Part shown: in pieces, positions 34,732 through 59,938 of the stretch | Position numbering within the stretch: position 1 is the stretch's first letter | Layout of the letters: each line of letters opens with the position of its first letter | Assembly (NCBI RefSeq): GCF_002117485.1 | Contig: NZ_CP021033.1 | Span: forward strand, 1 to 64,000 | Reading direction: 5' to 3' | Source: Rhizobium sp. NXC14 | GTDB lineage: Bacteria > Pseudomonadota > Alphaproteobacteria > Rhizobiales > Rhizobiaceae | DNA: 64,000 bases | Position numbers and translations under genes: made by a program | The notes under the pieces: generated by a model | Databases searched by the model: none | What the model was told of the DNA's origin: nothing | The model's input: only the letters and a program-made list of their open reading frames with translations

Positions 34732-34756
34732 GGAACAATGATCTGCCGGCGAGGTT
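34732..34756 (+). promoter_or_regulatory. EcfG-type promoter, GGAAC-N17-GTT
   Basis: GGAAC at 34732-34736 and GTT at 34754-34756, 45 bases before the start of the exported protein. Matches the general-stress consensus of alphaproteobacteria. Confidence 0.65.
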
Positions 34757-43853: not shown

Positions 43854-43878
43854 AACTCTCGCATCGGTCGGATGTTCC
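43854..43878 (-). promoter_or_regulatory. EcfG-type promoter, proximal to DUF892 gene 1
   Basis: On the minus strand GGAAC (43874-43878), 17 bases, GTT (43854-43856), about 35 bases before the DUF892 start. Confidence 0.7.
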
Positions 43879-43888
43879 GATCAGAAAT

Positions 43889-43916
43889 ATGACGCCCCCT
43901 TGGGCGGGGGCGTCAT
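43889..43916. other. Hairpin between the two EcfG-type promoters
   Basis: An 11-bp perfect stem (43889-43899 with 43906-43916) closed by six bases, ATGACGCCCCC to GGGGGCGTCAT. It sits between the distal promoter and the gene, so it could limit read-through or stabilise a leader. There is no T run on the plus strand. Confidence 0.6.
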
Positions 43917-43973
43917 CTCTGTCCGGCCAAGGAAGAGACCGCCCGATCGAGAGTACCGGGACGGCGATCACCG

Positions 43974-43998
43974 AACGATTGCGGGACGCCGTTGTTCC
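43974..43998 (-). promoter_or_regulatory. EcfG-type promoter, distal, best match
   Basis: Minus-strand GGAAC (43994-43998), then 16 bases and CGTT ending at 43974: a full match to the GGAAC-N16-CGTT form. It is about 155 bases from the DUF892 start, with the hairpin in between. Confidence 0.65.
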
Positions 43999-44105
43999 CG
44001 TCCGCGAGCCGGCGAGCAGCCGCCGGCCAAGCCGGACTTGTGTCCGGTATCGTACGGCAACGAATAGGGAGCCAGCGACTTTCCTTCTCATCCCAGGAGA
44101 GAAAA

Positions 44106-44633
44106 ATGGCTTCCTCGTCTTCAGTACGCCCCGCATCGCATTTCAAAGAAAAATCCGCGATCGAGCGGGAGATCGTCGAGCTGACACCAGCATTGCGGGC
44201 CTTTGCCCGAAGGTTCCTGCGCAGCGATGACGACATTGACGACCTTGTTCAGGAAACCCTGCTGAAGGCGCTGAACTCGCTTCACCTCTACCAGCCCGGC
44301 ACCTCGCTCAAATCCTGGCTTTTCACCATCCTGCGAAACACGTTCTGCACTAATTATCGGCGGAAGAAACGCGAGCCGGGTGGAATGGACGCGGCGATGG
44401 AACAGGTGGCGATCGCCCCGACCCAGGAGTGGGTGCTGCGGGAGCACGAATTGCAGCGGGCATTAACCCTTCTTTCCGACGACAGGCGCCGGGCTCTGAC
44501 GTTGGTGGCTGCCGGAACGAGCTATGAGGACGCCGCCAAGATGTGCGGGTGCCGGATCGGCACCTTGAAAAGCCGTGTGAGCCGCGCCCGCGAGTGCCTG
44601 ATTGCGATGCTCGGAAACCATCTCGTCGATTGA
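44106..44633 (+). CDS. EcfG-like extracytoplasmic-function sigma factor
   Basis: Sigma factor of 175 residues with regions 2 (ALRAFARRFLRSDDDIDDLV, QETLLKALNSL) and 4 (SYEDAAKMCGCRIGTLKSRV, SRARECL). LVQETLLKA, SLKSWLFTILRNTF and CGCRIGTLKSRVSRAR closely follow the EcfG/RpoE2 group that runs the alphaproteobacterial general stress response. The ATG at 44106 has AGGAGAG. No NepR or PhyR is adjacent, so it is probably an accessory paralogue rather than the master copy. EcfG-type promoters lie on both sides of it, but none for it was found. Confidence 0.82.
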   Translation: MASSSSVRPASHFKEKSAIEREIVELTPALRAFARRFLRSDDDIDDLVQETLLKALNSLHLYQPGTSLKSWLFTILRNTFCTNYRRKKREPGGMDAAMEQVAIAPTQEWVLREHELQRALTLLSDDRRRALTLVAAGTSYEDAAKMCGCRIGTLKSRVSRARECLIAMLGNHLVD

Positions 44634-44663
44634 GCCCGCTGCGCCGGCCGCTTCGCCTCGAGC

Positions 44664-44688
44664 GGAACAAACGGTCGTGGTCCTGGTT
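44664..44688 (+). promoter_or_regulatory. EcfG-type promoter upstream of the P450 gene
   Basis: GGAAC (44664-44668), 17 bases, GTT (44686-44688), 70 bases before the P450 start. It is flanked by GTTCC and so also reads as a match on the other strand. Confidence 0.6.
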
Positions 44689-44758
44689 CCAAGCCCAAAT
44701 CGATAGGATCGGCCGATCGAATCGATATGGGCCAACCGCCGGGCCAGGCTGAAGAGTC

Positions 44759-46081
44759 ATGAACGCGCGAAGCCACGCCATCTTTCCCAGAGTTAATCGC
44801 GCCGGATGGCTCGATACGCTCCAAGTATTGACGGCGGTCGTGGCCCCAACGGTTGCCAAGGGCATCATCATTCGCCGCCCGACAATGGAGCGTCTGGCGG
44901 AGCGGCAAGGCTTCGACAGAACCGCCGTGGAACAGATGCAGCGGCTGAGAAACAAATACGGGCCGGCTCCTCTTCTGCTGCCCATCCCATTGCGACCACA
45001 ACTGCTGATCCTCGATCCGGCCGATGTCGCCACGGTGCTTCAATCGTCGCCCGAACCGTTTGCCGCGGCGACGACGGAAAAGCATGCCGCCCTTGTTCAC
45101 TTCGAGCCGAAAAACGTCCTTATCTCATCGGACTCTCGGCGCGCCGAGCTTCGGCCTGCCCATGAGCACGCTTTGGCAGCGGCAGACCGGCTGCATCCAT
45201 ATGCGATGCATTTCAAGAAGATCGTGGACGCAGAATTCCTGCAGATCCTGAACTTACCCCGTGAGCTCGATTGGCCGGCCTTTTCGCAGGCCTGGTTCCG
45301 GATCGTCCGGCGGATTGTCCTCGGCGAACGAGCGCGCAACGACGTTACATTGACCGAGACCTTGAACGAACTTCGAGGCCGGGCGAACTGGGCATTTGCC
45401 GCCCCAGTCGATCAGCGCAAGCTTGCTCGGTTTCACGACCAGGTCGGCCGCTATCTTCGAGAGCCGGAGAAGTACAGTCTTGTCAATCGGTTTCCCAGAG
45501 GCGATGAGCTTGCTCCGGAAAACCAGGTGGCCCAATGGCTGTTCGCCTTTGATGCAGCCGGAATTGCCGTTATGAGGACGCTCGCCTTGCTGGCCTGCCA
45601 TGTGAGCTACTGGGGCAAAGCCGTGGAAGAGGCCGTCGGCGTGGATCTCGATCGCCCCTTCACACGCAGTTGTCTGCTGGAGGTTTTGCGTCTCTGGCCG
45701 ACGACGCCCGCCATCCTCAGGCAGCTGACCAGGGACATCCAGTCAGGCGACAGGGTCATCGCTCGCGGCACTGGCGTCATCATCTTCGTCCCCTTTTTCC
45801 ATCGAGACCCCGCGCTCCTCTATGCCAATCGGATGGAACCGAGCATCTGGGGACAGAACGATGCGTTGCCGGCCGCAGGGCTCGTGCCTTTCAGCGCCGG
45901 TCCTGTCATATGCCCGGCACATAATCTCGTGCCCACGATTGCAAGCCTTGCCGTGGGCACATTCTTGTCGGCCGCCGAGATTGTGCTGCTGCATCCGTCT
46001 TTAGACGTCGCCAATCTTCCCGGCACTCTCAATCACTTCGACATCCGTTTAAAGCTGACTGCGCGGCGCAGGGAGAAATAG
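44759..46081 (+). CDS. Cytochrome P450
   Basis: Haem mono-oxygenase-type protein of 440 residues. The ExxR motif is in LLEVLRLWPTTP near residue 307, and the haem-ligand loop is PFSAGPVICPAHNL, with Cys near 384; the usual Gly after the Cys is Ala. FVPFFHRDP and the HxxAL-like region support the family. No ferredoxin or reductase is adjacent. Redox partner and substrate are unknown. It follows the EcfG-like sigma gene and has its own EcfG-type promoter. Confidence 0.88.
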   Translation: MNARSHAIFPRVNRAGWLDTLQVLTAVVAPTVAKGIIIRRPTMERLAERQGFDRTAVEQMQRLRNKYGPAPLLLPIPLRPQLLILDPADVATVLQSSPEPFAAATTEKHAALVHFEPKNVLISSDSRRAELRPAHEHALAAADRLHPYAMHFKKIVDAEFLQILNLPRELDWPAFSQAWFRIVRRIVLGERARNDVTLTETLNELRGRANWAFAAPVDQRKLARFHDQVGRYLREPEKYSLVNRFPRGDELAPENQVAQWLFAFDAAGIAVMRTLALLACHVSYWGKAVEEAVGVDLDRPFTRSCLLEVLRLWPTTPAILRQLTRDIQSGDRVIARGTGVIIFVPFFHRDPALLYANRMEPSIWGQNDALPAAGLVPFSAGPVICPAHNLVPTIASLAVGTFLSAAEIVLLHPSLDVANLPGTLNHFDIRLKLTARRREK

Positions 46082-46123
46082 GTGCTGCCTCAATGGCCGC
46101 GGCACATTTCAGGTCGCGCCGGC

Positions 46124-46297
46124 TCACAGCCTTTGCATGACCCCGTAAACGAGGATCAAGATGTAGAGCAGAAAGGCGATGCCGACCACGGTCGCGATCA
46201 CAGCGATGACCAGCCACAGGGTTTTCAGCGCATCCCGCTGCCCTTCGTCGCTCGGCCGGTCCAAGCGGATCGGGTCGTCTTTCGGCCACTTCGTCAA
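46124..46297 (-). CDS. Small single-span membrane protein
   Basis: A 57-residue product with one hydrophobic helix (about 28-51, LWLVIAVIATVVGIAFLLYI) after a charged N-terminus. The start is a TTG at 46297 that overlaps the stop of the upstream 50-residue gene by TTGA. No family recognised. The open frame continues upstream without a stop, so a longer product is possible. Confidence 0.5.
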   Translation of the reverse strand: MTKWPKDDPIRLDRPSDEGQRDALKTLWLVIAVIATVVGIAFLLYILILVYGVMQRL

Positions 46298-46446
46298 GGA
46301 TTGGCTTCCGTTGAAGATTGCGTGGGCTGACCGCTTATGCTGATCGAGTTCCACGAGAGCGTAGCGCCGAACGCGATCACGAGCCCGACCAAGAGAATGG
46401 CTCCCAAATAGATCATGAAAGCGCGACGGTCCGATTCCTGGCTCAT
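46294..46446 (-). CDS. Small membrane protein, 50 residues
   Basis: Begins MSQESDRRAF and has one membrane helix (about 11-31, MIYLGAILLVGLVIAFGATL). AAGGAGAG lies six bases before the ATG at 46446, a strong site. It is too short for ordinary gene calling. Coupled by overlap to the 57-residue gene downstream and follows nrsF, so all may be one SigF-linked transcript. Confidence 0.6.
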   Translation of the reverse strand: MSQESDRRAFMIYLGAILLVGLVIAFGATLSWNSISISGQPTQSSTEANP

Positions 46447-46512
46447 CTTCTCTCCTTCGGTCCTCGAACCAAGGGAAACCCGGAATGTTCCAGATCAAGA
46501 AACCGAGAAGGA

Positions 46513-47157
46513 TCACCAGCGTAGCAGGCGGGGTCCGGTGACGGCGCCGACAGCGCCGATGAGCAGGATGCCGAGCGTATACCAGATCAACACGAAAGGC
46601 ATGCCGTTTTCGGTGCAGAACCAGGAATAGACCCAGGCGCCGGCTGCTCCCGCGGCAATGCCGGCGACGAAGCCGGTCAGCCGCAGATCCACTGGCGCTG
46701 CACGGCGCAGTGCCCAGACCGTACCGGCATAGACCGGGATCGCAAAGCCTGCGATGAGCGGCGGGCAATGCAGCGCCGAGGAGCCGAGGATCAGCAATCG
46801 ATAGCTCTCGCTCGGCGCCATCAGAAGCTGAATGGCCGCGACGGCCGTCATGGCGGCGAAGATCAAGGCGAGCAGACCGAAAAAGCGTCCCTCCGAGCCA
46901 TCGGGGCGGGAAAGCCGAAAAACGGCTGCAAAGGCGGCCGCCGCAATCAGGGCATTATAGGCCGACTTGATCCAGAAGACCGGCAGCATCAACACGTCTG
47001 AGATATCGACCCGGGGGCCGAGAATGATCAGCATCAGCAGCAGGGAAAATGCGAGGGCGGGCGCTATGCCGAGCGCAAAGCGGCGCCATAGCGCGTTGCG
47101 CGGCACCGGCTTCAGGTCGCTTGTCAATCGTTCGATGATATCGTCCGTCTTTGTCAC
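46513..47157 (-). CDS. nrsF: NrsF (DUF1109) anti-sigma-like membrane protein
   Basis: Inner-membrane protein of 214 residues with about six hydrophobic segments, the DUF1109/NrsF layout: a cytoplasmic N-terminus (IIERLTSDLKPVPRNALWRR), then paired helices with Cys residues in CPPLIAGFAIP and WFCTENG. NrsF holds the sigma factor SigF inactive until oxidative or metal stress. It starts at a GTG that overlaps the sigF stop (GTGA), so the pair is coupled. Confidence 0.85.
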   Translation of the reverse strand: MTKTDDIIERLTSDLKPVPRNALWRRFALGIAPALAFSLLLMLIILGPRVDISDVLMLPVFWIKSAYNALIAAAAFAAVFRLSRPDGSEGRFFGLLALIFAAMTAVAAIQLLMAPSESYRLLILGSSALHCPPLIAGFAIPVYAGTVWALRRAAPVDLRLTGFVAGIAAGAAGAWVYSWFCTENGMPFVLIWYTLGILLIGAVGAVTGPRLLRW

Positions 47158-47702
47158 GATGTGCCTCGCAATCTCTCTCCGAGCGCCTTGAGCGCCCGAT
47201 GGATGCTGACTTTCACCGCCGATTCGGACTGGCCGGTGCGGCTTGCGGCGTCGGCAACCGAACTGCCCTCGAGCTTCACCTGCCGGATCAGTTCCTGCTG
47301 TCTCGGCGGCAAGCCGTCAAGCAACCGCTCGACGTCCAGGCGGGCAGTCAGTCTGTCCTCCCTGAAGTCGCTTTCGATCTCTTCATCAAGCTCTGTCTCA
47401 GCCAGCCTGCGTCCGCCACGGCCGCGGTGATGGTCTATCAGCTTGTAGCGGGCGATGGAGAAAAACCAGGCGGTAAAAGGTCTGTTCCGGTCATAGGTAG
47501 ACCGTCGGGAATGCAGCGCCAGCAACGTCTCCTGCACCAGATCTTCCATGTCCGCTCTCGTCGCCGCAGCCATCCTGCGGCTGTAATAGCCGACAAGCAG
47601 CACACGCAAAGCCGTCAGCAAACGCCGATAGGCAGCCTCGTCCCCGTCAAGGGACAGAAGCATCAATGCTTTCAGGGCTTCTTCCGAATGGGCGGTGGTC
47701 AT
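47154..47702 (-). CDS. SigF-like ECF sigma factor
   Basis: Sigma factor of about 182 residues. Region 2 is DMEDLVQETLLALHSRRSTY with PFTAWFFSIARYKLIDHHR; region 4 is LPPRQQELIRQVKLEGSSVA, DAASRTGQSESAVKVSIHR. The downstream NrsF partner defines it as SigF-type. The start is taken as the ATG at 47702. Typical SigF target genes (DoxX, DUF2282, DUF692) are not adjacent. Confidence 0.87.
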   Translation of the reverse strand: MTTAHSEEALKALMLLSLDGDEAAYRRLLTALRVLLVGYYSRRMAAATRADMEDLVQETLLALHSRRSTYDRNRPFTAWFFSIARYKLIDHHRGRGGRRLAETELDEEIESDFREDRLTARLDVERLLDGLPPRQQELIRQVKLEGSSVADAASRTGQSESAVKVSIHRALKALGERLRGTS

Positions 47703-47819
47703 GCTGTCAAAGAGCTCATTCGTAGCTGCAGGCAATCGGGTTACACCGTAAATCAAACAATTTCGGCACCGAACCTCTATCACATGAGTGTGAAGCTGTA
47801 ACGCATCCCGACGGACCGC

Positions 47820-47987
47820 GAATGGATAGATGTGAGCCGGCGGCAGATCGCCGACGGACACGGTAATCTGTTCCAGGAAAATTCCCAGGACCAAGCTTTT
47901 TTGATCAAGACGCTTGATGGCAGCGGATGGTTCTATGAGAGCATCGATCTCGTCGACGCCTTCCATCCGCAGATTATCCTCGCCTAG
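47820..47987 (+). pseudogene. C-terminal relic of a molybdopterin oxidoreductase-like gene
   Basis: An open stretch reads EWIDVSRRQIADGHGN and then DGSGWFYESIDLVDAFHPQI before a TAG. The last block resembles the catalytic-domain motif of sulfite-oxidase/MsrP-like molybdopterin proteins (WYESID-x-DAFHPQT). Nothing before or after continues the protein, so it is a fragment. It lies in a 440-base gap (47703-48143) with no other gene. Confidence 0.4.
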
Positions 47988-48143
47988 GTGATGAACCTGG
48001 AAGTAGCGCGCCGACCAGGCTCCGGGTCGAGCGGCAGCTTGGTTAACGGATTCAAGGCAGTCGCGATCACGGGCAGCTTTACGGCGGCAATGACGGCGTC
48101 CGGGGGGATCGCGGCTCGAATGGAATGCGGGAATAGGCTGCGG

Positions 48144-48893
48144 TTATCCCTGTGCAGCCAATCGGTTCGAAAGAGCTGATCGCTTCGATTTTCTCAGAGG
48201 TCCAAGCAGTCGCTCATATTCGTCCTCCGCCCTGCCGTAGGCGTCGGCGGCGAATTCCTCGAGACCGGCGCGATCTCTGACGATCACCAGCCCTCGGACG
48301 GAGCGGATGAAATGGTTGCCCTCGAGCAGATGCAGCGCTGTGGTGACGCTCGGGCGTCTGACTGCCAGCATCAGTGCAATGAATTCATGGGTCAGGGCGA
48401 GCTTATCGCCGTCAATGCGATCGTGGCACATCAAGATCCAGCGAGCCAGCCGCTCATCGATGCCGTGGATCGCATTGGAGAGCGCGGTGAAACCGGCCTG
48501 AACCGCGAGGGCGTGGGTGCTCTTATGCAGCAGACTGGTAAGCACCGGCTGAGTTTTGATCAGATCCAGCAACGTGTCTTGCTGCAACCGATACGCAAAA
48601 CCCGGTACCTGGACGGTGATCTCGGTAATGTTGATTCCCGCGTCGATCGCTGCCGCAGTGGGGGCAAACCCCTCACGGCCGAACAATCCGGCTTCGACGC
48701 GATTGCCCTCGGGCGAAATATTGATGACGGAACCTACCCCCGAGCACGGAAAATAGACGTAGTCGATCGCCCGGCCGGCTTCGGCCATGAGAAAGCCGCG
48801 AGGGGTCTCGCAAGCTTCGAGACGAGAAACGACCGCTGCAAGCTCCTCCTTGGGCAAGAGGGCGAGCAACCGGTTCTCATTGGGCGGTGTCAT
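48144..48893 (-). CDS. Crp/Fnr-family regulator 1
   Basis: Protein of 249 residues. The cyclic-nucleotide-like domain covers about 10-130 (DYVYFPCSGVGSVINISPEG), then a dimer helix and winged helix (LTHEFIALMLAVRRPSVTTA, LHLLEGNHFIRSVRGLVIV). It lacks the Fnr Cys cluster. The same architecture is repeated at 53037 and 56479, so it is one of three related regulators in 10 kb. The ATG at 48893 is used; a TTG four codons upstream is possible. An EcfG-type promoter lies about 60 bases upstream. Confidence 0.88.
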   Translation of the reverse strand: MTPPNENRLLALLPKEELAAVVSRLEACETPRGFLMAEAGRAIDYVYFPCSGVGSVINISPEGNRVEAGLFGREGFAPTAAAIDAGINITEITVQVPGFAYRLQQDTLLDLIKTQPVLTSLLHKSTHALAVQAGFTALSNAIHGIDERLARWILMCHDRIDGDKLALTHEFIALMLAVRRPSVTTALHLLEGNHFIRSVRGLVIVRDRAGLEEFAADAYGRAEDEYERLLGPLRKSKRSALSNRLAAQG

Positions 48894-48953
48894 AGCTTCT
48901 GCCAATGCTCGCTCTCCGGAAGACGCGGGGTTTTAAGGCAGTCTGATCTATGC

Positions 48954-48978
48954 AACTCACGAGCCCGCCCACGGTTCC
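48954..48978 (-). promoter_or_regulatory. EcfG-type promoter of Crp/Fnr gene 1
   Basis: Minus-strand GGAAC (48974-48978), 17 bases, GTT (48954-48956), about 60 bases before the start codon. Confidence 0.68.
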
Positions 48979-48992
48979 TGCAATGTGCGGAA

Positions 48993-49830
48993 TCAGCGAG
49001 AGGTATCGCTGGCAGACTTGCCGGCCTTTGCCGGATCAAGGTCGTAGCGCCCGCCTTCGGGCACAGCGATGTCGCGGAAGGCGACAGCGAGACGATGCAG
49101 CTGATTTCTGACATACTGCCCCTTGATAGGCCTGCCGTGCCCAGAGATGATAAGCGCCGGTTCCAGCGATGCCAGAAGCGAGACGGATTTTTGCGCCTCC
49201 TGCGAATCCGGCGTAAAATAGCGCGGCGGTCCGTGGATCTCCGGTGTCTGGGCGATCGCTTCGTAAGCCGATTCCTGTCCCGTCGTAATGATGGCGGCGC
49301 CCGCTATCAGCGTACGGTCGCTTTCACGCCAAAGCGAGATATGGCCCGGCGACCCGGCGTATGGAGCCATACCCATCCCGGCATCCCCGGCACAGTCTGG
49401 TCGGCAGGTGGCATTTCCAGCCGTGGCCGCACATCGACAGGCGAGCGCGGATAGAGCTGCGATAGCAAGGTCATGGCGCCGCCGCCGGCCAGCGGATCGG
49501 CGCGAGGATAGGACGCCTCTCCCTCCAGATACGGCCTTTTCCAGCGGATGCGCGAAGACAGGCACATCCCAGTAGCTTGCGAGACTCTCGACGGATCCGG
49601 CGTGATCGGAATGCGCATGCGTCATCACGATGGCGGCAGGCGGCACATTGTCACCAAACCGCAGGGCCGCGAACTCCCTGATCCGATCGCTCGAAGTCGA
49701 CAGGCCCGTATCGATGAGAACCCACGGACCTTGCCCGTCGGGTCGCCATAAAAGATGACGTTGACGATCCACATCGTTCGATAGGCAAGATCGGACGTCA
49801 GGACGACCTGCGTTCCATCAGCCGATTTCC
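48993..49830 (-). pseudogene. Metallo-beta-lactamase-fold hydrolase with at least three frameshifts
   Basis: The protein can be followed across frames: an N-terminal piece (ADGTQVVLTSDLAYRTMW to NVIFYGDPTGK), a second in another frame with VLIDTGLSTSSDR and the metal motif MTHAHSDHAGS, a third (RPYLEGEASYPRADPLAGG to WLHTPG), and a return to the second frame (SPGHISLWRESDRTLIAGAA, GHGRPIKG). Frame changes lie near 49730, 49530 and 49350. The last two nearly compensate, but about 60 residues are scrambled. No intact start is visible. Confidence 0.85.
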
Positions 49831-49878
49831 TCGCGGGCGCAGGTCACCATCGGACAGAGGAAGCTGGTTGACCATGCC

Positions 49879-50391
49879 TCAGACCTTCGCCGTTTCGCCG
49901 GCCTGGCGCAGCGAAAGGAACTTGGTCGTCAGCGCGACGACGTTGTCGTTGATCCATTGCGCCATTGCCAGTTCCTCAGCGAGACTGGCTTGCAGGCCGG
50001 ACATGGCGCCGCCAAAACCGCCGGCTTCGGCGATGGTGAGCAGCGATTTGTAGGCCGCGGCTTCGAAGTTTTCGAAAGCATAGTTGGCGAAGGAATTCTT
50101 CAGGATCTCGTCGCCGGCAACCGTATGGCCAAGTGCCGCCATCGATCCGCTAAAGGAAAGTGCGAGGTCCTTCAGCGTCGACTTGTCCTCATTCAAACCG
50201 TCGAGGATCTCTTCCAGGCGCACGATCTGGCCATCGGTTTCGCGGATGTGCTGATCGAGCTTTTCAGCGACTTCCGGATAATTTTCGATGCGCTTGAGCT
50301 GCGGCTTCATGATGCTGAGCGCCTGGTTTTCCATGGCATGCGCGTTTCTCAAGCCGACGACGAAAATGTCACGAATCTCGTTCTCTGCCAT
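49879..50391 (-). CDS. DUF892/YciE ferritin-like stress protein 2
   Basis: Four-helix protein of 170 residues with the family start IRDIFVVGLRNAHAMENQAL and later QLKRIENYPEVAEKLDQHI and FENFEAAAYKSLLTIAEAGG. It is a distant paralogue of the protein at 43317. AAGGAGG precedes the ATG. It is divergent from Mn-catalase, and each has its own EcfG-type promoter in the 190 bases between, so both should rise together under stress. Confidence 0.87.
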   Translation of the reverse strand: MAENEIRDIFVVGLRNAHAMENQALSIMKPQLKRIENYPEVAEKLDQHIRETDGQIVRLEEILDGLNEDKSTLKDLALSFSGSMAALGHTVAGDEILKNSFANYAFENFEAAAYKSLLTIAEAGGFGGAMSGLQASLAEELAMAQWINDNVVALTTKFLSLRQAGETAKV

Positions 50392-50420
50392 ATCGGGCCT
50401 CCTTTTTCTCGAAGCACCCT

Positions 50421-50445
50421 AACCGGAACGATTCGTCTTAGTTCC
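50421..50445 (-). promoter_or_regulatory. EcfG-type promoter of DUF892 gene 2
   Basis: Minus-strand GGAAC (50441-50445), 17 bases, GTT (50421-50423), 30 bases before the start codon. Confidence 0.7.
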
Positions 50446-50499
50446 CAGCAATCCCCATCCGTACGAATGAAACCAACCCTCTCGGATTACCGCGCATCG

Positions 50500-50524
50500 G
50501 GAACCGCCTCCTCGTCCGGTTGTT
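50500..50524 (+). promoter_or_regulatory. EcfG-type promoter of Mn-catalase
   Basis: GGAAC (50500-50504), 17 bases, GTT (50522-50524), 55 bases before the catalase start. Confidence 0.7.
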
Positions 50525-50578
50525 GGGGCCGAGTCCTGATGCCTTGGCATAGACGAACACCCCAAAAAGGAGAGACTG

Positions 50579-51403
50579 ATGTTCTATACGGATGGAAAGC
50601 TTCAATTCCCGGTGCGGGTCGATTCACCCGATCCTCAATTCGCCAGAGCTTTGCAGCAGGCAATCGGCGGCGTGGAAGGCGAGATCCGGGTTGCCATGCA
50701 ATATTTCTTTCAGGCCTTCGGCGCCCGTGGCAATCCCAAGTTCCGCGATCTCCTGATGAATACGGCGGCGGAAGAACTCGGCCACATCGAGATGCTGGCG
50801 ACAGCGGTTGCATTGAACCTTGAGGGCGCTCCGGTTTCGGTCAAGGAAGAAGTTGCCGGCGATCCTGTCGCGAGCGCGGTGCTTGGCGGGCTGAACATGA
50901 AGAACCTGCTCTCGGCCGGCCTCTCAGCCATGCCCGTCGATTCCGACGGCGTTCCCTTCGACATGTCGCATATCTACGCAAGCGGCAATATCGCCGCAGA
51001 CATGGCGGCCAATGTCGCCGCCGAATCCACTGGTCGGGTTTTGGCCACCCGCCTGTTCAACCTCACGAACGATCCCGGGATGAAGCAGATGCTCTCCTAT
51101 CTGATCGCTCGTGACACCATGCATCAGAACCAATGGATGGCAGCACTCGAAGAACTCGGCGGCCCGACAAAGGTCTTCCCGATTCCGAACAGCTTCCCCC
51201 AGGAGCAGGAACTGCAGGAATTCAGCTACGCCTATCTCGGCTTCCAGCAGGACGGCAGCGAGCCGGCGCCGGGACGCTGGTCGCAAGGTCCATCAATCGA
51301 CGGTAAGGGGAATTTCAAGACAGTCGTTCCGCAGCCGATGGGACAGAAGCCGGTCCTCGGACCGGCCAAACCTGACAGCGGAGCACAGGCTGAGCAGTTG
51401 TAA
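50579..51403 (+). CDS. Manganese catalase
   Basis: Non-haem catalase of 274 residues that disproportionates hydrogen peroxide at a di-manganese centre. The five metal ligands of the family are in place: Glu35 (GVEGEIRVAMQ), Glu66 and His69 (AAEELGHIEM), Glu149 (VAAESTGRVLAT) and His182 (RDTMHQNQW). AGGAGA is upstream. It heads a plus-strand run with the DUF4142 and esterase genes and is preceded by an EcfG-type promoter. It complements katG for stationary or stressed cells. Confidence 0.93.
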   Translation: MFYTDGKLQFPVRVDSPDPQFARALQQAIGGVEGEIRVAMQYFFQAFGARGNPKFRDLLMNTAAEELGHIEMLATAVALNLEGAPVSVKEEVAGDPVASAVLGGLNMKNLLSAGLSAMPVDSDGVPFDMSHIYASGNIAADMAANVAAESTGRVLATRLFNLTNDPGMKQMLSYLIARDTMHQNQWMAALEELGGPTKVFPIPNSFPQEQELQEFSYAYLGFQQDGSEPAPGRWSQGPSIDGKGNFKTVVPQPMGQKPVLGPAKPDSGAQAEQL

Positions 51404-51445
51404 CTGGCGGTCAGGCTCGCCCCGCACTCATACCGGAGAACGTTC

Positions 51446-52929: not shown

Positions 52930-53036
52930 TCGAGCGCAGGCCCTCGAGTCTGTACGCTATTGCACAATGTATTGCTCAACGATTCGAGATGGTTAGGTTC
53001 GCCCGCAGCAAGGGCCGCATTATCACTGATGCGCGT

Positions 53037-53762: not shown

Positions 53763-53786
53763 AAAGCATGCCGCCGCGTGAGCGCC

Positions 53787-54218
53787 TCAGGACCGCTCCC
53801 TCCGCTCCTTCTCGGAGGCATGCCAGGCTCTGTCGATACTGCCTTCCTCCGCCTTGTGAAAGAATTGCGAGCACACGAGCCAGCCTTTCAGCGGCCTCAG
53901 AATGAGAATGCAGGCGATGACGCTGAGGGGCAGGCTGACGATGAGATGCACCCAGATCGCCGGCTCGAACGTGAATTGGAACCAGAGGGCAAAGGCGAGC
54001 GCCGGAACGGCGACGATCGACATCGCGAAGAAGGCCGGCCCATCCGCCGGATCGGCGAATGAATAATCCAGGCCGCAGACTTCGCAGCCTCGGGCGAGCG
54101 TAAGATATCCGGAAAACAGATGACCCCGCTGGCACCGCGGGCAGCGTCCCAAAAGTCCCGTGAGGGCAGGGTTCGTCGTTACCTGATAATTGGTGGGAAC
54201 TTCATTTTCGGGTTCCAT
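53787..54218 (-). CDS. DUF983 zinc-ribbon membrane protein
   Basis: Protein of 143 residues. The N-terminus has two Cys pairs (GRCPRCQRGHLF and GCEVCGLDYSF) forming a probable zinc ribbon, then two membrane helices (about 65-85 and 92-112). DUF983 has no agreed role; some members sit near cytochrome oxidase genes. The EcfG-type motif ends only nine bases before the start, so a leader would be very short. Confidence 0.83.
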   Translation of the reverse strand: MEPENEVPTNYQVTTNPALTGLLGRCPRCQRGHLFSGYLTLARGCEVCGLDYSFADPADGPAFFAMSIVAVPALAFALWFQFTFEPAIWVHLIVSLPLSVIACILILRPLKGWLVCSQFFHKAEEGSIDRAWHASEKERRERS

Positions 54219-54226
54219 TCCCCTCG

Positions 54227-54251
54227 AACCGCGCCCGAAGGGGCAGGTTCC
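54227..54251 (-). promoter_or_regulatory. EcfG-type motif just upstream of the DUF983 gene
   Basis: Minus-strand GGAAC (54247-54251), 17 bases, GTT (54227-54229). Very close to the start codon, so weaker than the other sites. Confidence 0.45.
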
Positions 54252-54287
54252 GCAGCCGACGGTGTTTTTCGGCGGACCGGCGGTGGA

Positions 54288-54470
54288 TCAGCCTGATCCT
54301 GGCGTGATGCTCTGGTCGTCCTTCTCGGACAGCGCGCCGGCGCCGGGCGTTTTGCTTTCGTCTATGAGATGATCCTTGGCGTGAGGGCCGGCGGGCGGGT
54401 TTTTCCTCGCATCGGCGGTTTCCTTTTCGGTTCCTTCGATGTCGGCTCGCGCTTTTTCACCGTCATTCAT
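54288..54470 (-). CDS. Small hydrophilic protein, 60 residues
   Basis: Lys/Glu/Asp-rich protein with no hydrophobic segment, probably disordered (MNDGEKARADIEGTEKETAD at the start, Pro/Gly-rich end). GAGGAG precedes the ATG, which overlaps the stop of the upstream gene (ATGA). No family recognised; the make-up resembles small stress proteins. Confidence 0.55.
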   Translation of the reverse strand: MNDGEKARADIEGTEKETADARKNPPAGPHAKDHLIDESKTPGAGALSEKDDQSITPGSG

Positions 54471-54769
54471 GAGCTGCTCCTCGTCAGATTGAGATGACCG
54501 AGCGGCCGTTTCGATCTCCGCCCCGCCGTGATCGCAGCAGTTCGGGAGAGCCCCCTTTTCGCCGACGCCAGACGGCCGACCGACAGCAGCTTGACCTCGT
54601 CAGTCAAACCGTGGCGATAAAGGCGAATGAGCAGAGCGGCGACCTCCTGCATTTCAGGCGAACGCACGGCTTTGCCGGCCTCGCGGCAGATCACATCCAA
54701 GACGATTTGCAGACGCTGAAGATCGGCAGAATCGAGCGCTTTCAAATGGATGGACTGAGAATCGAGCAT
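54467..54769 (-). CDS. Hypothetical protein, 100 residues
   Basis: The N-terminal half (about 1-62) is amphipathic and helical (IHLKALDSADLQRLQIVLDV, MQEVAALLIRLYRHG), like a small protein-binding domain; the C-terminal half is basic (GRRSKRPLGHLNLTR). The ATG at 54769 follows AGGG. It is coupled by ATGA to the 60-residue gene. No family is recognised. Confidence 0.6.
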   Translation of the reverse strand: MLDSQSIHLKALDSADLQRLQIVLDVICREAGKAVRSPEMQEVAALLIRLYRHGLTDEVKLLSVGRLASAKRGLSRTAAITAGRRSKRPLGHLNLTRSSS

Positions 54770-54903
54770 GACCCTGGTCCCTAAGCTTTTCACCGTGCGT
54801 TTTTGAATAATGGGACTCTATTGCAGCCGAAACAACTCCTCGTCCTCCATTGTACGGAAGCGAACACCCACCGCATCGCGCGCCCGAAGGGAAGCCAGGC
54901 GCT

Positions 54904-55275
54904 TTAGTGATAATAGGACGGGTCCCCTCCGAACAGAGCGGCGATCATCGCGTCCACGTCGGAAGGACGCCCACTGACCACAAAGCTGCCCGGCGGTGTT
55001 TCGGATCGCTCGTCATAGGCAAAGATGAAAGGAATCCGCCGTGTCTCCAACCAATCATTTATCCAGAGCATGGCTTCGTCGGAAATCGTCACGTCGACGA
55101 TCACCGCATCGAACAGCAGGCCCTCGCTCAAGCATTCCATGGCGCTGGAGATGACAAGGGGGCCGGCGAGCACCGCCTGGCGCGCGATCAACGCCTTTCT
55201 TGCACCGTCCGAAAGGAAGCCGGCTTCACCAATGATAAGGATCGTCTTGCCGGCGACCGGACTGAGCGACTTCAT
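54904..55275 (-). CDS. Degenerate response-regulator receiver protein
   Basis: Single receiver-like domain of 123 residues without an output domain. The phosphoacceptor-like Asp61 is in FDAVIVDVTISDE, but the N-terminal acidic pair is reduced to one Glu (IIGEAGFLS) and the usual Thr and Lys residues are not obvious. Such stand-alone receivers often act with HWE kinases. An EcfG-type promoter is 140 bases upstream. The kinase at 57410 is a possible partner. Confidence 0.65.
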   Translation of the reverse strand: MKSLSPVAGKTILIIGEAGFLSDGARKALIARQAVLAGPLVISSAMECLSEGLLFDAVIVDVTISDEAMLWINDWLETRRIPFIFAYDERSETPPGSFVVSGRPSDVDAMIAALFGGDPSYYH

Positions 55276-55414
55276 GGCGGACGCCTACTGTAATCCAGGT
55301 TTTAGGGTGATCATGCTGTTCAATGGCGGTTTAGAAGCATAGGCGGGTCCGCGCCTGTATCGTGCCTACCATATTCGAGCCTGTCATGCGACGTTCATTT
55401 TGCCCTGACCGCCG

Positions 55415-55439
55415 AACCCTTGCCGGGCCGCCTTGTTCC
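55415..55439 (-). promoter_or_regulatory. EcfG-type promoter, 140 bases upstream of the receiver gene
   Basis: Minus-strand GGAAC (55435-55439), 17 bases, GTT (55415-55417). No gene lies between it and the receiver protein start at 55275. Confidence 0.55.
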
Positions 55440-55549
55440 CCGGCGGTTGGGATCGGGGCGCCGGCCGTGCGATCCGTACGTTTTCGCACCAGCTGTTGAA
55501 ATCGATGACCCTAAGTTTAGGATCGTCGCATACAAGGGGAGGAACGCGG

Positions 55550-55849
55550 ATGATGCAGCACGCGGGAATCACGAAGCCGCCGTTACAGCCCGACGACGTG
55601 GCAATGCTGACCGCGGTCCTTGAAGACTGGTGCCAGGAAAAATCATGCGGGATCGCCAGCCGGGCAGCCGAACATATTGCCAGAGAACTCGTATCCTGGT
55701 TCGAATGCGGCATTCGAGACAAGCATAGGCTCGCAGGCCTGATGCGGCATGTGTATCTGGATCCAGAGGACCTGCTCGTCACCCCGGATGCACCGGCCTG
55801 CGCACATGTGCGCGAGAATGCCGGGCGGGCGGATGGGCACGATGGATAG
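55550..55849 (+). CDS. Hypothetical protein, 99 residues
   Basis: Helical soluble protein (LQPDDVAMLTAVLEDWCQEK, AAEHIARELVSWFECGIRDK). No family recognised. GGGGAGGA (55536-55543) supports the ATG at 55550. Its end overlaps the next gene, so the two are coupled. Confidence 0.68.
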   Translation: MMQHAGITKPPLQPDDVAMLTAVLEDWCQEKSCGIASRAAEHIARELVSWFECGIRDKHRLAGLMRHVYLDPEDLLVTPDAPACAHVRENAGRADGHDG

Positions 55850-56138
55850 AACGCGGCAAAGTGCCCCTGTCGCGGCGGGGCATTCCGAACTCGGTTTTGT
55901 CGATCGGCAGATTGCTCTGCGACAGATCGTTGCCGATCTTAGAAACCTGCGCGATGGAGTGCCGGACAACTTCGGTCGAGCTCCGGCTCTCGATCGTCTG
56001 CTTCGCATGATCGACGCTTCGGTCATATCGATTGCCAAAGCGGATGACGAGGAATGGGAGATCATTCTTATGGAGCTCCTCGATCTTCGCGCGACGATGA
56101 CGCGTCTTGCCACTGGCGGCGCCGAAACGTCCCACTGA
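55842..56138 (+). CDS. Hypothetical helical protein, 98 residues
   Basis: Soluble helical protein (ELGFVDRQIALRQIVADLRN, LDRLLRMIDASVISIAKADD). No family recognised. It overlaps the previous gene by eight bases; another ATG at 55833 is possible. No ribosome site of its own is strong, in line with coupling. Confidence 0.6.
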   Translation: MDRTRQSAPVAAGHSELGFVDRQIALRQIVADLRNLRDGVPDNFGRAPALDRLLRMIDASVISIAKADDEEWEIILMELLDLRATMTRLATGGAETSH

Positions 56139-56255
56139 TTTCGACAGCAGGATTTGAAACGAGGAAATTGTCGCCGTTTTAAAGGGCGCCCTGGTTCTTT
56201 TCCACGGAACCTTAAGACAGGCTATGGCATTGGTTCTGCAACGATGGGGCGGCTG

Positions 56256-56495
56256 ATGCCACGATTTTATTTTAATGTCGTTTCAGACACCGGCACGGTC
56301 GTTGATCCCGATGGTTCTGAACTGGCGACCATTGAAGACGCCAGGCGCGAAGCCGTTCAGGATGCAAGAGCCCTCATGAGTCAGGCAATTCTTTCGGGAA
56401 AAGACATTTCAGCGAGAAAGATCTACATCTGCGACGAACAGGGGACCCTGGTTCTGATCGTGCCTTTCGCCGATACGATCAGGAGTGCCGATTAG
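56256..56495 (+). CDS. DUF6894-like small protein
   Basis: Protein of 79 residues starting MPRFYFNVVSDTGTVVDPDG and containing EDARREAVQDARALMSQAI, the pattern of a very common small rhizobial family (DUF6894). Function unknown; copies are often stress-linked. It overlaps the end of the convergent Crp/Fnr gene by 17 bases. Confidence 0.75.
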   Translation: MPRFYFNVVSDTGTVVDPDGSELATIEDARREAVQDARALMSQAILSGKDISARKIYICDEQGTLVLIVPFADTIRSAD

Positions 56496-57219
56496 TGGGG
56501 CGCCGGATCGGCAGACCGATCAAACGTTGATATTCGCGCTCCGGAACGCCGTAGCAGCCGGCTGCGATTTCTTCCAGCCGGTCCCTGTCGAGGATCCTGA
56601 CATTGGCGCGCGTCGACCTGATCGCTCGAAGACCTTCAATGACGTGCAATTCGTTGGTGACGCCTGCGCGGCGCACGCCGAGCATGATGGCCAGCAGTTC
56701 ATGCGTCAGCGGCAGGTCGCTGCCATTCAGCCGGTCGTGGCACATCAGCAGCCAGCGGGCGAGCCGCTCGTGCATGTTGTAGCGCCCGTTGGCAAGCGCT
56801 GACTGGGCCAGCTGAATGTCGCAGCAATGCATGTATTTGAGGAAAAGTTCGTTGGCGACCGGAAATTCCGCCAGCACCTGCTTGAAGCTTTTCACCGACA
56901 CCTGCACGCCGGAGCCGGCGACCTGAACGAAGGTGCGGTTGGGTGTCGTATCCGTTCTCAGCAGGACATGGAGGCCGGACATGCCGTCATGTCCGATGTG
57001 GCCGACCTCGACGGCTTCGTCATCGCCATTGGCGGCCACCATTGAGGCAAGACCGCCTTCGATGAAACAGACATACTCGTTCGGCTGATCGGCTTCGACC
57101 AGAACATGTCTGGCCGGAAGTTCGATCAGACTGCCATCGCCGGTGAGCTTTTGGAATGCCTCGGCCGGCAGGGCCTTCAACAGCAGATTCCGAATATTGC
57201 GTTGGTCCGGTACGTGCAT
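56479..57219 (-). CDS. Crp/Fnr-family regulator 3
   Basis: Protein of 246 residues of the same type as the ones at 48144 and 53037: sensor with YVCFIEGGLASMVAANGDDE and GHDGMSGLHVLLRTD, winged helix PLTHELLAIMLGVRRAGVTN. AGGAG precedes the ATG at 57219. No Cys cluster. The putative partner histidine kinase gene is transcribed the same way further upstream. Confidence 0.88.
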   Translation of the reverse strand: MHVPDQRNIRNLLLKALPAEAFQKLTGDGSLIELPARHVLVEADQPNEYVCFIEGGLASMVAANGDDEAVEVGHIGHDGMSGLHVLLRTDTTPNRTFVQVAGSGVQVSVKSFKQVLAEFPVANELFLKYMHCCDIQLAQSALANGRYNMHERLARWLLMCHDRLNGSDLPLTHELLAIMLGVRRAGVTNELHVIEGLRAIRSTRANVRILDRDRLEEIAAGCYGVPEREYQRLIGLPIRRPTNRHS

Positions 57220-57409
57220 GCGCTTCTCCTGGCGGGAGACAGCCCGTGCTCATACCGACGCCTCGTTGGCGGTAATGACAGAGATATGGGTCATGCATGC
57301 AATGATGACCATCTGTAGAAGAGTTTTGTACGGTTGTGACAAAAGCCGGGCGATAGAATTCCCAAGGGCGCCCTTGCCGACTTCATTCCCCGGCCGACAC
57401 GGAACGCTC

Positions 57410-58783
57410 TCAAACCTCCCTTGGCAGCCGGATCACGAACCCCGTGCCGGGCTCCCGGTTTTCGATGTGAAGCTCGGCCCTCAGTTGCTGCACCAACGCA
57501 CGCACGATCTTCATTCCGAGGCTTTTTCCGCCGTTCTGGCCGGACAGCACTTCCGGCGGCAGTCCTCGTCCGTCGTCGGCGATCTCGAGGCGGATCTCAT
57601 CGGCAATGCTGCGGGCGCTGACTGTGACGGCGCCGGAGACATCGGGATAGGCGTGCTTGAAGGCATTGGTCACCAGCTCATTGACGAGGAGGGCGATCTG
57701 GATCGCCCGGTCGGCATCGACCATGCATTGATCAGCGTTGACTGATACTGCGTGGCGGGAGGTCGATTGCTGCAGGCGCTGGCAGAGGCTCGACAGGAAA
57801 TCCGCCAGATCCACCGTTTCGATATCCGGCTGACGCCATAATTGATCGTGCACCTGGGCGATGGTTCCGACACGCGCTTCCGCATCGCGAAGCGCCTGTC
57901 CGACCTCCTCCTGTTTGGTCGAACGGGCCTGCATGGCGAGCATGGCCGCAACCAGAGCCAGGCTGTTCTTGACGCGATGGCTCATCTCCCGCAGCATGAT
58001 CTGCTGATGCTCGTCGGCGAAATGCCGCTCGGTATCGTCCCGGAGCACTTTGAGAAAACCGGCGCGCTGGGCGCGCAGCGGCATGGTCAAGCCGCTGCCC
58101 CAGAATGTCGAGCCGTCCTTACGCAAGTGAAACCGCTCGTTCTCGGCGCGGCCGCGCTCGGCCGCCGCCTCCATCTCGCGCTCCAGCGCGCCCTCTTCGC
58201 GGTCCTCGGGAACGAACAGGATGCGGGCGTCGCGACCGAGGATCTCGCTCTCCTCGTAGCCGAAGATGCGGCACGCGCCGGTGTTCCAGCTGATGATCCG
58301 CCCATCGCGGCCGAAGGCGAAGATCGCATAGTCGATCGCGCTTTTGAGAATAAGCTGGAGGCGCTCTTCGCTGGCGCGCCGAGCTTCGTCCTCATGCAGC
58401 ATCTGCGTTCGGTCGCGGACGATTTTCAGAAGGCCATAGGTCTCGCCGGCATCGTTGCGAAGCGGCATCATCAGTCCCGAAGCCCAGAACGAACTGCCGT
58501 CCTTTCTCACATGCCAGCGATTGTCGTCGGCGCGGCCGGTGGTCAAGGCAAGCCTGATCTCCTTAAGCATTGCCCCGGCAAGCTGATCTTCGAACGTAAA
58601 GATCACGGCACCGCTCTGTCCGATGATTTCGGGCGGCGAATAGCCGAAGAGATTTTCCGCGCCGGCGCTCCACGTCACGACAGTGCCGTCGCGATCCATC
58701 GCAAAGATTGCATAGTCCCGGGCGCTCTCAATGATGTGCCGATAGATTTCCGCCTCGTCGCTCGAAAGGGGATATTGATCCAT
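57410..58783 (-). CDS. PAS-PAS sensor histidine kinase (HWE/HisKA_2 type)
   Basis: Cytoplasmic sensor kinase of 457 residues. Two PAS domains occupy about 10-125 and 140-255 (SARDYAIFAMDRDGTVVTWS; SAIDYAIFAFGRDGRIISWN). The phosphoacceptor His269 is in LREMSHRVKNSLALVAAML, and the ATPase has LLVNELVTNAFKHAYP and DDGRGLPPE, a group-11/HWE-like set. There is no membrane segment. Kinases of this type drive the PhyR/EcfG general stress response, which fits the genomic setting, but the receiver partner is not proven. Confidence 0.9.
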   Translation of the reverse strand: MDQYPLSSDEAEIYRHIIESARDYAIFAMDRDGTVVTWSAGAENLFGYSPPEIIGQSGAVIFTFEDQLAGAMLKEIRLALTTGRADDNRWHVRKDGSSFWASGLMMPLRNDAGETYGLLKIVRDRTQMLHEDEARRASEERLQLILKSAIDYAIFAFGRDGRIISWNTGACRIFGYEESEILGRDARILFVPEDREEGALEREMEAAAERGRAENERFHLRKDGSTFWGSGLTMPLRAQRAGFLKVLRDDTERHFADEHQQIMLREMSHRVKNSLALVAAMLAMQARSTKQEEVGQALRDAEARVGTIAQVHDQLWRQPDIETVDLADFLSSLCQRLQQSTSRHAVSVNADQCMVDADRAIQIALLVNELVTNAFKHAYPDVSGAVTVSARSIADEIRLEIADDGRGLPPEVLSGQNGGKSLGMKIVRALVQQLRAELHIENREPGTGFVIRLPREV

Positions 58784-58960
58784 GTCTGCGCCCCCATGGA
58801 ATTGCCGTCAGTTACATTAGCACTTACTACAGTATATTCTCACCCAAGTGCGCTTGCGTACAAAGTGGCTACGGAGCCTTCTGTCGATAATAGCAGTTTA
58901 CGGCGAGGTGCCTTGCACTCGGCCATTGACGTGTCCTCTTGCCAAACAAAGGGCAGCGTG

Positions 58961-59559
58961 ATGCGAGCGTTCGAAAGCGAAAATCTCATTCTGTCGCAGT
59001 TGGCGGATCCGGGAACCGGCATTGCTTCCATTGTAGGCGACGAGTCCTGAGGGCAGCAAAGTCGAGATCGGCGTGCTTGGCAGGGACGGGATGTTGCCGC
59101 CGGCTCTGACGGTGGACGCGGAGCAGTTTTCATTCGACGTCACGATGCAGGTTGGGCTGTGATGGGCGCCGTGCGGAAGCCGGCGCCCTGGCATGCTTCC
59201 TCGCCGATCGGCCTGCGGTCCGCCGGCTGCTTTCGCGTTTTCTCCATAACTTGTTCCCGCAGGTCGCCAACACCGCGCCCTCCAACGCCGTGCACAAGAT
59301 CGATGTTCGCCTGGCGAAATGGATTCTGATGTGCAACGACCGCCTCAATGACGAAGAGGTTGAAATCACGCACGAATATGTGGCCACGTTGCTCGGAGTG
59401 CGCCGTTCCAGTGTCACCGATGCCTTACGCATCCTGGAGGGTAAGCATCTCATTTATTTCACCCGCGGCCTGGTGATCATCCAGAACCGCGCATCCCTCG
59501 AAGCCTTCGCCGCAGAGGCCTACGACCTCCCTGGTACCACAGGACGCGGCTGCCGCTGA
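58961..59559 (+). pseudogene. Broken fourth Crp/Fnr-family regulator
   Basis: Three frames must be joined: MRAFESENLILSQLADPG ending at GDES*, then PEGSKVEIGVLGRDGMLPPA to TMQVGL*, then the C-terminal half (NAVHKIDVRLAKWILMCNDR, ITHEYVATLLGVRRSSVTDA). These are the sensor domain and winged helix of the same regulator type as the three intact ones nearby. The changes lie near 59046 and 59158. The last 130 residues keep a usable open frame, but the sensor is broken and truncated. Confidence 0.85.
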
Positions 59560-59626
59560 TCGACCGCCCATCTCTGGCGCTGAGGCGCTGAAGCCGGCGT
59601 GCACCGAAGTCGGCGATACCCACGCG

Positions 59627-59887
59627 TCACTTACCCGGCAGATCCTTTTCGGTCGTCGCAGCTGCCGGAAGGCGGTTCTGCGACCCCTCCCTATCGGACG
59701 CGCGCAAAGGAGCTGTGGGCGCCTTCTGGACATAGATGCCGAGTCCGAGCGCGCCGATGGCGACCACAAAAGCGCCGGCGATGGCGGCGACCGATCGTCG
59801 CCCATCCTGCTTGATCATTCCGAAAGCAAGAGCAATTCCGAGAAAGGCCGCCCCTCCCGATACCGCAAAAAGCCAGAGATAATTCAT
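59627..59887 (-). CDS. Small two-helix membrane protein
   Basis: Protein of 86 residues with two hydrophobic helices (YLWLFAVSGGAAFLGIALAF; SVAAIAGAFVVAIGALGLGI) and a charged tail. Three ATGs in a row (59893, 59890, 59887) follow GGGAG; the third has the best spacing. No family name is known to me. It has its own EcfG-type promoter 27 bases upstream. Confidence 0.68.
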   Translation of the reverse strand: MNYLWLFAVSGGAAFLGIALAFGMIKQDGRRSVAAIAGAFVVAIGALGLGIYVQKAPTAPLRASDREGSQNRLPAAATTEKDLPGK

Positions 59888-59913
59888 CATCATGCTCCCA
59901 ATGTCAGGCCCCG

Positions 59914-59938
59914 AACCCGTGAAGATGGTGTAGGTTCC
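59914..59938 (-). promoter_or_regulatory. EcfG-type promoter of the 86-residue membrane protein
   Basis: Minus-strand GGAAC (59934-59938), 17 bases, GTT (59914-59916). Confidence 0.68.

Follow-up and report, generated by a model that had tools for sequence, protein, structure and literature searches.

A plasmid-borne EcfG paralog in Rhizobium sp. NXC14 probably reads a local set of NGTT-type promoters

Which sigma factor reads the GGAAC-N17-GTT sites that crowd around the sigma factor gene ecfG2 in Rhizobium sp. NXC14? The genome of this strain comprises four contigs (6.686 Mb), and the stretch analysed here (the window) is the first 64 000 nucleotides of the 889 kb replicon C4 (C4:1-64000). 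Within it, an island of 16.1 kb (positions 43854-59938) holds ecfG2, stress genes and most of the sites. We propose that the island is a plasmid-borne EcfG2 regulon with NGTT promoters, probably centred on and mainly read by EcfG2 and partly insulated from EcfG1, the chromosomal paralog.

The sigma gene itself is the following feature:
44106-44633, plus strand: ecfG2, a non-canonical EcfG (ECF15-type) sigma factor of 175 amino acids, identified by Pfam and homology.

Pfam families Sigma70_r2, Sigma70_r4_2 and PhyR_sigma2 matched on a longer open reading frame (ORF; 43992-44633). The product contains sigma regions 2 and 4 only and is closest to EcfG and the PhyR sigma domain; its best solved relative is 5uxx_A (E 9e-36). 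The gene is 98% identical to its counterpart on plasmid p42f of R. etli CFN42 and shares 42% identity with the phyR-linked ecfG1 of NXC14. No phyR match was found within 4 kb of ecfG2 (nepR was not searched for separately), and we therefore classed it as a non-canonical EcfG. We take the gene to be the ortholog of R. etli CFN42 ecfG2/PF00052, with which we equated the p42f gene RHE_RS26680 by position, size and plasmid. Both genes are plasmid-borne, belong to the EcfG group, lack an adjacent nepR or phyR, and have largely the same neighbours in the same order; neither the Mn-catalase nor the DUF983 gene of the island is annotated in the p42f record at the matching neighbourhood. The nearest Rhizobium plasmid to the island is Rhizobium sp. 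NLR16a p1 (94% identity over 78% of the query), and p42f is among the other plasmids matching it (88% over 71%).

The available text of Jans et al. 2013 (PMC3892343) gives the R. etli EcfG1 sites as GGAAC-N16-CGTT. A motif search on the EcfG2 targets gave no hits there, the EcfG1 motif preceded just one of the 19 units whose level fell in the ecfG2 mutant, and autoregulation of ecfG2 was reported. The accessible part of a 2021 review (PMC8103513) states that the two EcfG types have distinct promoter sequences, the non-canonical pattern being as yet undetermined. In a literature search largely outside subscription journals, we found no earlier report of a -10 split between EcfG paralogs. A motif and a local site set for EcfG2 are proposed here.

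A first-pass annotation, made by eye from the sequence, had named nine GGAAC-N17-GTT sites in the island and a tenth at 34732. All ten are present, each with a spacing of exactly 17 bases from GGAAC to GTT, and one further site (46467, minus strand) had been overlooked. The sites, with the base before GTT included in the -10 element, are:
43854-43878, minus strand: EcfG-type promoter, AGTT, of DUF892 gene 1 (43317-43820).
43974-43998, minus strand: second EcfG-type promoter of DUF892 gene 1, CGTT, the sole C-type site of the island.
44664-44688, plus strand: EcfG-type promoter, GGTT, of the P450 gene (44759-46081); palindromic.
44666-44690, minus strand: palindromic partner of the P450 site, a GGAAC-N17-GTT match aimed into the 3' end of ecfG2.
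46467-46491, minus strand: EcfG-type promoter, GGTT, before a 50-residue peptide with a hydrophobic stretch (46294-46446).
48954-48978, minus strand: EcfG-type promoter, AGTT, of a Crp/Fnr regulator gene (48144-48905).
50421-50445, minus strand: EcfG-type promoter, GGTT, of DUF892 gene 2 (49879-50391).
50500-50524, plus strand: EcfG-type promoter, TGTT, of the Mn-catalase gene (50579-51403).
54227-54251, minus strand: EcfG-type promoter, GGTT, of the DUF983 gene (53787-54218), 9 bp ahead of the start codon.
55415-55439, minus strand: EcfG-type promoter, GGTT, preceding 54904-55275 (receiver-like by eye).
59914-59938, minus strand: EcfG-type promoter, GGTT, of an 86-residue protein with hydrophobic stretches (about 59627-59887).
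34732-34756, plus strand: EcfG-type promoter, GGTT, of a 106-residue protein with a signal-peptide-like start (34801-35121).

Counted by reading the ORFs, 11 sites, the one at 34732 included, lie upstream of genes. The gene caller marked 34732, 50500 and 59914 as coding and assigned no downstream gene to 46467, labels that we consider off because overlapping or over-extended ORFs were chosen and short ORFs ignored. The remaining two matches of the window, at 14826 and 47464 (both minus strand), lie inside coding sequence and are probably due to chance. Because the P450 promoter is palindromic, the motif also appears on the minus strand at 44664-44690, and this palindrome is retained in related loci L001, L072, L073, L076 and L077. 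A site corresponding to 46467 is present in L001, L002 and L071-L078, one similar to 59914 occurs at position 19041 of L001, and the site at 34732 was read in 11 of 20 related loci, some of which do not extend to its position. The DUF983 transcript would be leaderless or nearly so, since its site ends 9 bp before the start codon, and the promoter at 50500 perhaps also serves the DUF4142 and hydrolase genes that follow the Mn-catalase.

Could eight fixed bases in a GC-rich plasmid produce such sites by chance or composition? The genome as a whole would seem to allow it, as its 236 matches barely exceed the 196 obtained with the reversed control pattern; the consensus alone is thus uninformative genome-wide and the signal is local. 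In the window, 14 matches were found on both strands, compared with a mean of 1.11 and a maximum of 4 in 100 dinucleotide shuffles. The island held 12 matches, including the palindromic partner and one match within coding sequence, where 0.57 were expected from the genome density (Poisson, 1.4e-12, or 5.7e-10 if 10 are counted). The enrichment that the first-pass annotation had offered as a judgement is thereby borne out. When 16-kb windows were ranked genome-wide with palindromic partners merged, the island tied with C4:179-195 kb at 11 sites each, and the third-densest window (7 sites, from C1:3484 kb) contains the chromosomal ecfG1.

The spacing is equally restrictive. In the first 264 kb of C4, a spacer of 17 gave 37 matches, of which 17 were intergenic and upstream of a start on the same strand, versus 2-13 matches (0 or 1 upstream) for each of ten other spacers from 12 to 22. 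A 200-kb chromosome sample yielded four matches (two upstream) at spacer 17 and 2-5 (0-1 upstream) at other spacers. Across 20 loci carrying ecfG2 orthologs, drawn from two plasmid records and 18 genome contigs, 127 matches were found at spacer 17 versus 5-22 at each of 15 other spacers from 10 to 25, and corresponding genes retain the site although the spacer bases diverge. The same dependence (88 matches versus 5-25 at twelve other spacers) was seen in 15 further loci from Agrobacterium, Sinorhizobium, Ensifer, Shinella, Rhodobacterales, Falsochrobactrum and other Rhizobium, a set in which L106 was later grouped with the ecfG2 orthologs and L090 is canonical. Gene content differs across these further loci, and ferritin-like, catalase, P450 and Crp/Fnr genes recur (four of 12 records are unannotated). 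A chance origin of the island sites is refuted by the spacing dependence and the local density, and we give it almost no weight.

The first-pass annotation had read the pattern as the RpoE2/EcfG promoter of a compact stress island. The EcfG type of the sites is supported by their fixed spacing, their position upstream of stress genes, their conservation and their clustering at an EcfG gene. They share with the canonical promoter, GGAAC-N16-CGTT, the -35 element, the 16 bases to a four-base -10 element and the GTT. They are nevertheless not canonical, because C precedes GTT in only one of the 11 upstream sites and G, A or T in the other ten. The local, clustered stress regulon also stands, while its compactness does not: sites extend beyond the island, and a second hot spot at C4:179-232 kb (L202-L205) has 18 matches, nine of them intergenic and upstream of a start on the same strand. 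The genes downstream there encode alcohol dehydrogenases, an epimerase, a cyanophycin-synthase-like ligase, an NDH2-like oxidoreductase and a receiver-cNMP-Crp hybrid regulator. C precedes GTT in two of the 18 matches and one of the nine upstream sites.

We then compared the base before GTT between sigma clades, using sites within 7.5 kb of the sigma gene and merging sites at least 70% alike into clusters. In total, 96 loci were scored, after exclusion of L092-L094 (Bacillus and Nitriliruptoraceae matches) and L108-L136. All 96 entered the dyad and Crp/Fnr counts described below; the ecfG promoter search and the count of two -10 bases used 95 (without L176, a short contig with no site), and the count of the base before GTT used 94 (without L176 and L166), with L190, in which no phyR was detected, grouped with the canonical loci. 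Near the 22 Rhizobium ecfG2 genes we found 63 clusters (5.3 per control spacer), with G in 48%, A in 21%, T in 19% and C in 12%. The other non-canonical ecfG genes, 42 in number, had 169 clusters around them (17.9 per control spacer) with C in 20%, and the 30 canonical ones had 121 (10.8 per control spacer) with C in 71%. The difference in C between ecfG2 and canonical loci was pronounced (Fisher, 2.8e-14). Divided by sigma score, the canonical loci fell into 21 ('canon A'; C in 82% of 92 clusters) and nine ('canon B'; C in 34% of 29). Control spacers had C in 32-36% in the three main sets and in 46% in the nine-locus set.

Counts of the first two -10 bases gave the same picture. The ecfG2 loci had GG 30, AG 14, TG 12, CG 8 and CA 1, so that CATT was near background (one cluster versus 0.6 in the control). 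The canon A loci had CG 75, CA 14, GG 6, TG 6 and AG 4. Values for the 43 other non-canonical loci were GG 68, TG 37, CG 33, AG 32 and CA 25, and for canon B CG 10, AG 7, GG 7, CA 6 and TG 5. We also sampled 20 new loci (19 of them phyR-linked) from those of 121 genomes that have a single EcfG match; they gave CG 85, CA 24, AG 6, GG 4, TG 3, GA 3 and AA 1; one of these loci, L225, had a TGTT match only. The main canonical clade thus shows C-R-TT with or without a second EcfG, and sites near ecfG2 are mostly D-G-TT. Character displacement, in which the strict C would occur only beside a second EcfG, was rejected because the 20 loci with a single EcfG match are still mostly CGTT or CATT.

The clades are also separated in sigma regions 2.3-2.4, for example by T79, N83, Y84 and K88 versus E, Q, M and G. 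We do not claim any residue as a determinant of the -10 choice, since in canon B these residues are the canonical ones in all nine sigmas, yet the sites are mixed. The literature on loop L3 was set aside as well; it concerns a flipped 'master' base, which we read as the final T, whereas the difference here lies at another base.

These data suggest a simple rule. EcfG2 would read the ECF15/EcfG-class promoters of the island, requiring GGAAC, 17 bases and GTT and preferring G, A or T before GTT. EcfG1 would require C at that position and accept CGTT or CATT. CGTT sites would then be common to both sigmas, DGTT sites of the EcfG2 type and CATT sites of the EcfG1 type. In E. coli fusions described in the available text of PMC3892343, phyR and ReC64 answered both sigmas, ecfG1 only EcfG1 and ecfG2 only EcfG2. 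The corresponding NXC14 elements are CGTT for phyR, CATT for nepR-ecfG1, CGTT past a kinase gene where ReC64 is expected, and ACTT for ecfG2. All four results fit the rule, with the sites taken from NXC14 and the reporters from that study. As expected from the rule, the S. meliloti sigma RpoE2 raises expression of rpoE5, whose listed promoter ends in CATT in the accessible part of PMC6180224.

The same sites might instead be read mainly by EcfG1, with EcfG2 only amplifying the response, as reported for SigU in Caulobacter, and with a base other than C merely weakening the promoter. We regard this as unlikely, though it is the strongest competitor. It would agree with the variable -10 boxes of Sphingopyxis and the C/GGTT of Methylobacterium, as far as the excerpts at hand describe them, and with the partial dependence of ecfG2 expression on EcfG1 stated in the available text of PMC3892343. 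In the consulted part of PMC4167512, the two R. etli sigmas are given a single motif, ggAAC-N16-cgTT, which our reading contradicts. If the island sites were weak EcfG1 promoters, however, C should not drop below its control-spacer level near ecfG2 (12% versus 34%) while canonical loci are strongly C, and weakness alone gives no reason for the sites to gather at ecfG2-type genes. The mutant regulons of ecfG1 and ecfG2, moreover, have only 11 genes in common according to the same text of PMC3892343. The reading in which EcfG2 is the main sigma of these sites remains the one that we favour.

How, then, is ecfG2 itself transcribed? The first-pass annotation had found no site before the sigma gene. 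A variant site is present, adjoined by an inverted repeat:
44042-44055, plus strand: dyad GTCCG-GTAT-CGTAC, putative activator site of ecfG2; 5-4-5 inverted repeat with one mismatch.
44057-44061, plus strand: variant -35 element GCAAC of the ecfG2 promoter.
44079-44081, plus strand: variant -10 element (A)CTT of the ecfG2 promoter, from the locus alignment.
55476-55489, no strand assigned: possible second dyad copy, GTACG-TTTT-CGCAC, with one mismatch, some 60 bp ahead of an ORF at 55550.

GCAAC-N17-CTT lies ~50 bp upstream of ecfG2 in all 22 Rhizobium loci. The wider pattern G[CG]AAC-N17-[ACG]TT precedes 29 of 43 other non-canonical ecfG genes (24 with GGAAC, 18 with CATT), with the search window widened by hand for L001, L091 and L106, and matches 3.0-4.4% of random 180-bp windows. 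It was found before none of 30 canonical ecfG genes, in line with their place as second genes of an operon.

The dyad, GTNCG-N4-CGYAC, begins fifteen bases ahead of the -35 start, leaving one base between the two elements. The composite GTNCG-N4-CGYAC-N-GCAAC was found in 22/22 Rhizobium ecfG2 loci and in three of 14 more distant ones (two Agrobacterium, one Shinella), and dyad plus -35 element in 28 of 66 non-canonical loci altogether. The -35 element is GCAAC in 27 of these 28, and GGAAC in all of the 23 other promoter matches. The 23-mer around the dyad is unique in the genome allowing up to three mismatches, and no dyad was found within 250 bp of any of the 30 canonical genes. Perfect dyads occur elsewhere in several islands, among them L074, L075 and L076 at a place that we read as equivalent to 55476; the copy at 55476 is a possible second site, not significant by itself.

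Operators of the Crp/Fnr type are five-four-five inverted repeats that can adjoin the -35 element, and the window dyad has this geometry with one mismatch. Crp/Fnr genes were found nearby in 21 of the 28 dyad loci, three of the 38 dyad-less non-canonical loci and none of the 30 canonical loci. Six of the 28 dyad loci are less than 70% identical, and five of these six have a Crp/Fnr gene. From geometry and co-occurrence we infer that the dyad is a Crp/Fnr binding site, and a weak promoter adjoining a symmetric site suggests an activator. EcfG2 would thus drive its own gene from the weak variant GCAAC-N17-CTT, aided by a dimeric activator on the dyad. The activator would most likely be one of the three intact Crp/Fnr regulators encoded in the island, of which at least one has an EcfG-type promoter, and a feed-forward loop would result.

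The island also encodes a second extracytoplasmic function (ECF) sigma factor with an NrsF-type anti-sigma gene (46513-47966; sigma gene 47154-47966). Its place within the island makes it a candidate reader of the sites. Matches to it, however, occurred in only 11 of the 28 dyad loci and two of the 38 others, yet spacing-17 sites surround non-canonical ecfG genes. The NrsF-type sigma is presumably linked to ECF16. Promoters of the S. meliloti ECF16 factor RpoE7 are given as TGTAAC..CGAA in the available part of PMC6180224, and we consider this candidate highly improbable.

Besides the single R. etli motif of PMC4167512, several observations weigh against the assignment of the sites to EcfG2 and of the dyad to an island activator. 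The island contains one CGTT site (43974-43998), and the ecfG2 promoter is ACTT and not NGTT. Canon B loci (L165, L167-L173 and L175) are phyR-linked and have mixed sites despite canonical sigma residues in regions 2.3-2.4, and the rule is looser in other non-canonical genera, as 18 of the 29 promoters found there are CATT. Only one or two sites lie within 7.5 kb in six of the 22 ecfG2 loci, and none in two other non-canonical loci. On chromosome C1, 10 of 30 CGTT places and five of 30 GGTT places were upstream and intergenic, a weak difference; the places listed numbered 74 and 79, respectively, and the first 30 of each list were examined. In the accessible part of PMC7083833, -10 changes away from CGTT lowered transcription in Sphingopyxis, CGTT being the best of those tested. 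The consulted part of PMC8103513 describes non-canonical EcfG without autoregulation, in conflict with PMC3892343. As for the dyad, GTMCG-N4-CGTAC is rarer genome-wide than the reversed control (10 versus 64), which speaks against a broad dyad regulon, and the two matches to a looser form in the window were reached by 21 of 100 shuffles and are not above chance. The Crp/Fnr queries were taken from the island; of the 28 dyad loci, 22 are orthologs of it, and related loci are not independent.

Paralogous systems elsewhere resemble this one in part. S. meliloti RpoE5 (SMb21484) is likewise a plasmid-borne ECF15 paralog, and its listed promoter, GGAAC-N17-ATT in the available part of PMC6180224, has the arrangement seen in 15 of the 29 promoter matches at other non-canonical ecfG genes. 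It differs in that the dyad was not found in the strain examined (L098) and that one putative target is reported in the literature accessible to us. Sphingopyxis granuli also has two paralogs, EcfG1 and EcfG2, and a flexible -10 box; a -10 split by paralog is not reported in the examined text of PMC7083833.

The content of the islands is variable: DUF892 gene 1 occurs in 14, the P450 gene in 11 and the Mn-catalase gene in two of the 28 dyad loci. In the window, 57410-58783 encodes a PAS-PAS HisKA_2/HWE kinase, a possible input kinase to PhyR; its C-terminal half resembles PhyK, with a score under the cut-off of the PhyK model. The gene at 54904-55275, labelled a receiver in the first-pass annotation, matched no Pfam family (E≤1) and no NCBIfam family (0.001). 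By position, 58870-59600 corresponds to an NLR16a region with a fourth Crp/Fnr gene (L002, 18838-19566); here it contains shorter open frames only.

Extended to the family, the chances seem to us about even that Rhizobiaceae EcfG paralogs split the promoter, with canonical C-R-TT, non-canonical D-G-TT and CGTT shared, that the regulon travels with the sigma gene as a plasmid island, and that the sigma is self-driven via a weak promoter needing an island Crp/Fnr-type activator. The analysis yields an explicit pattern, together with sequence sets for the two classes and a rule with which four published reporter results agree. The variant GCAAC-N17-CTT offers an explanation for autoregulation of ecfG2, which lacks a GGAAC site. 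The dyad hints that a Crp/Fnr-type regulator may feed into the general stress response as a second input, and the -10 difference suggests how the cell separates two stress programmes.

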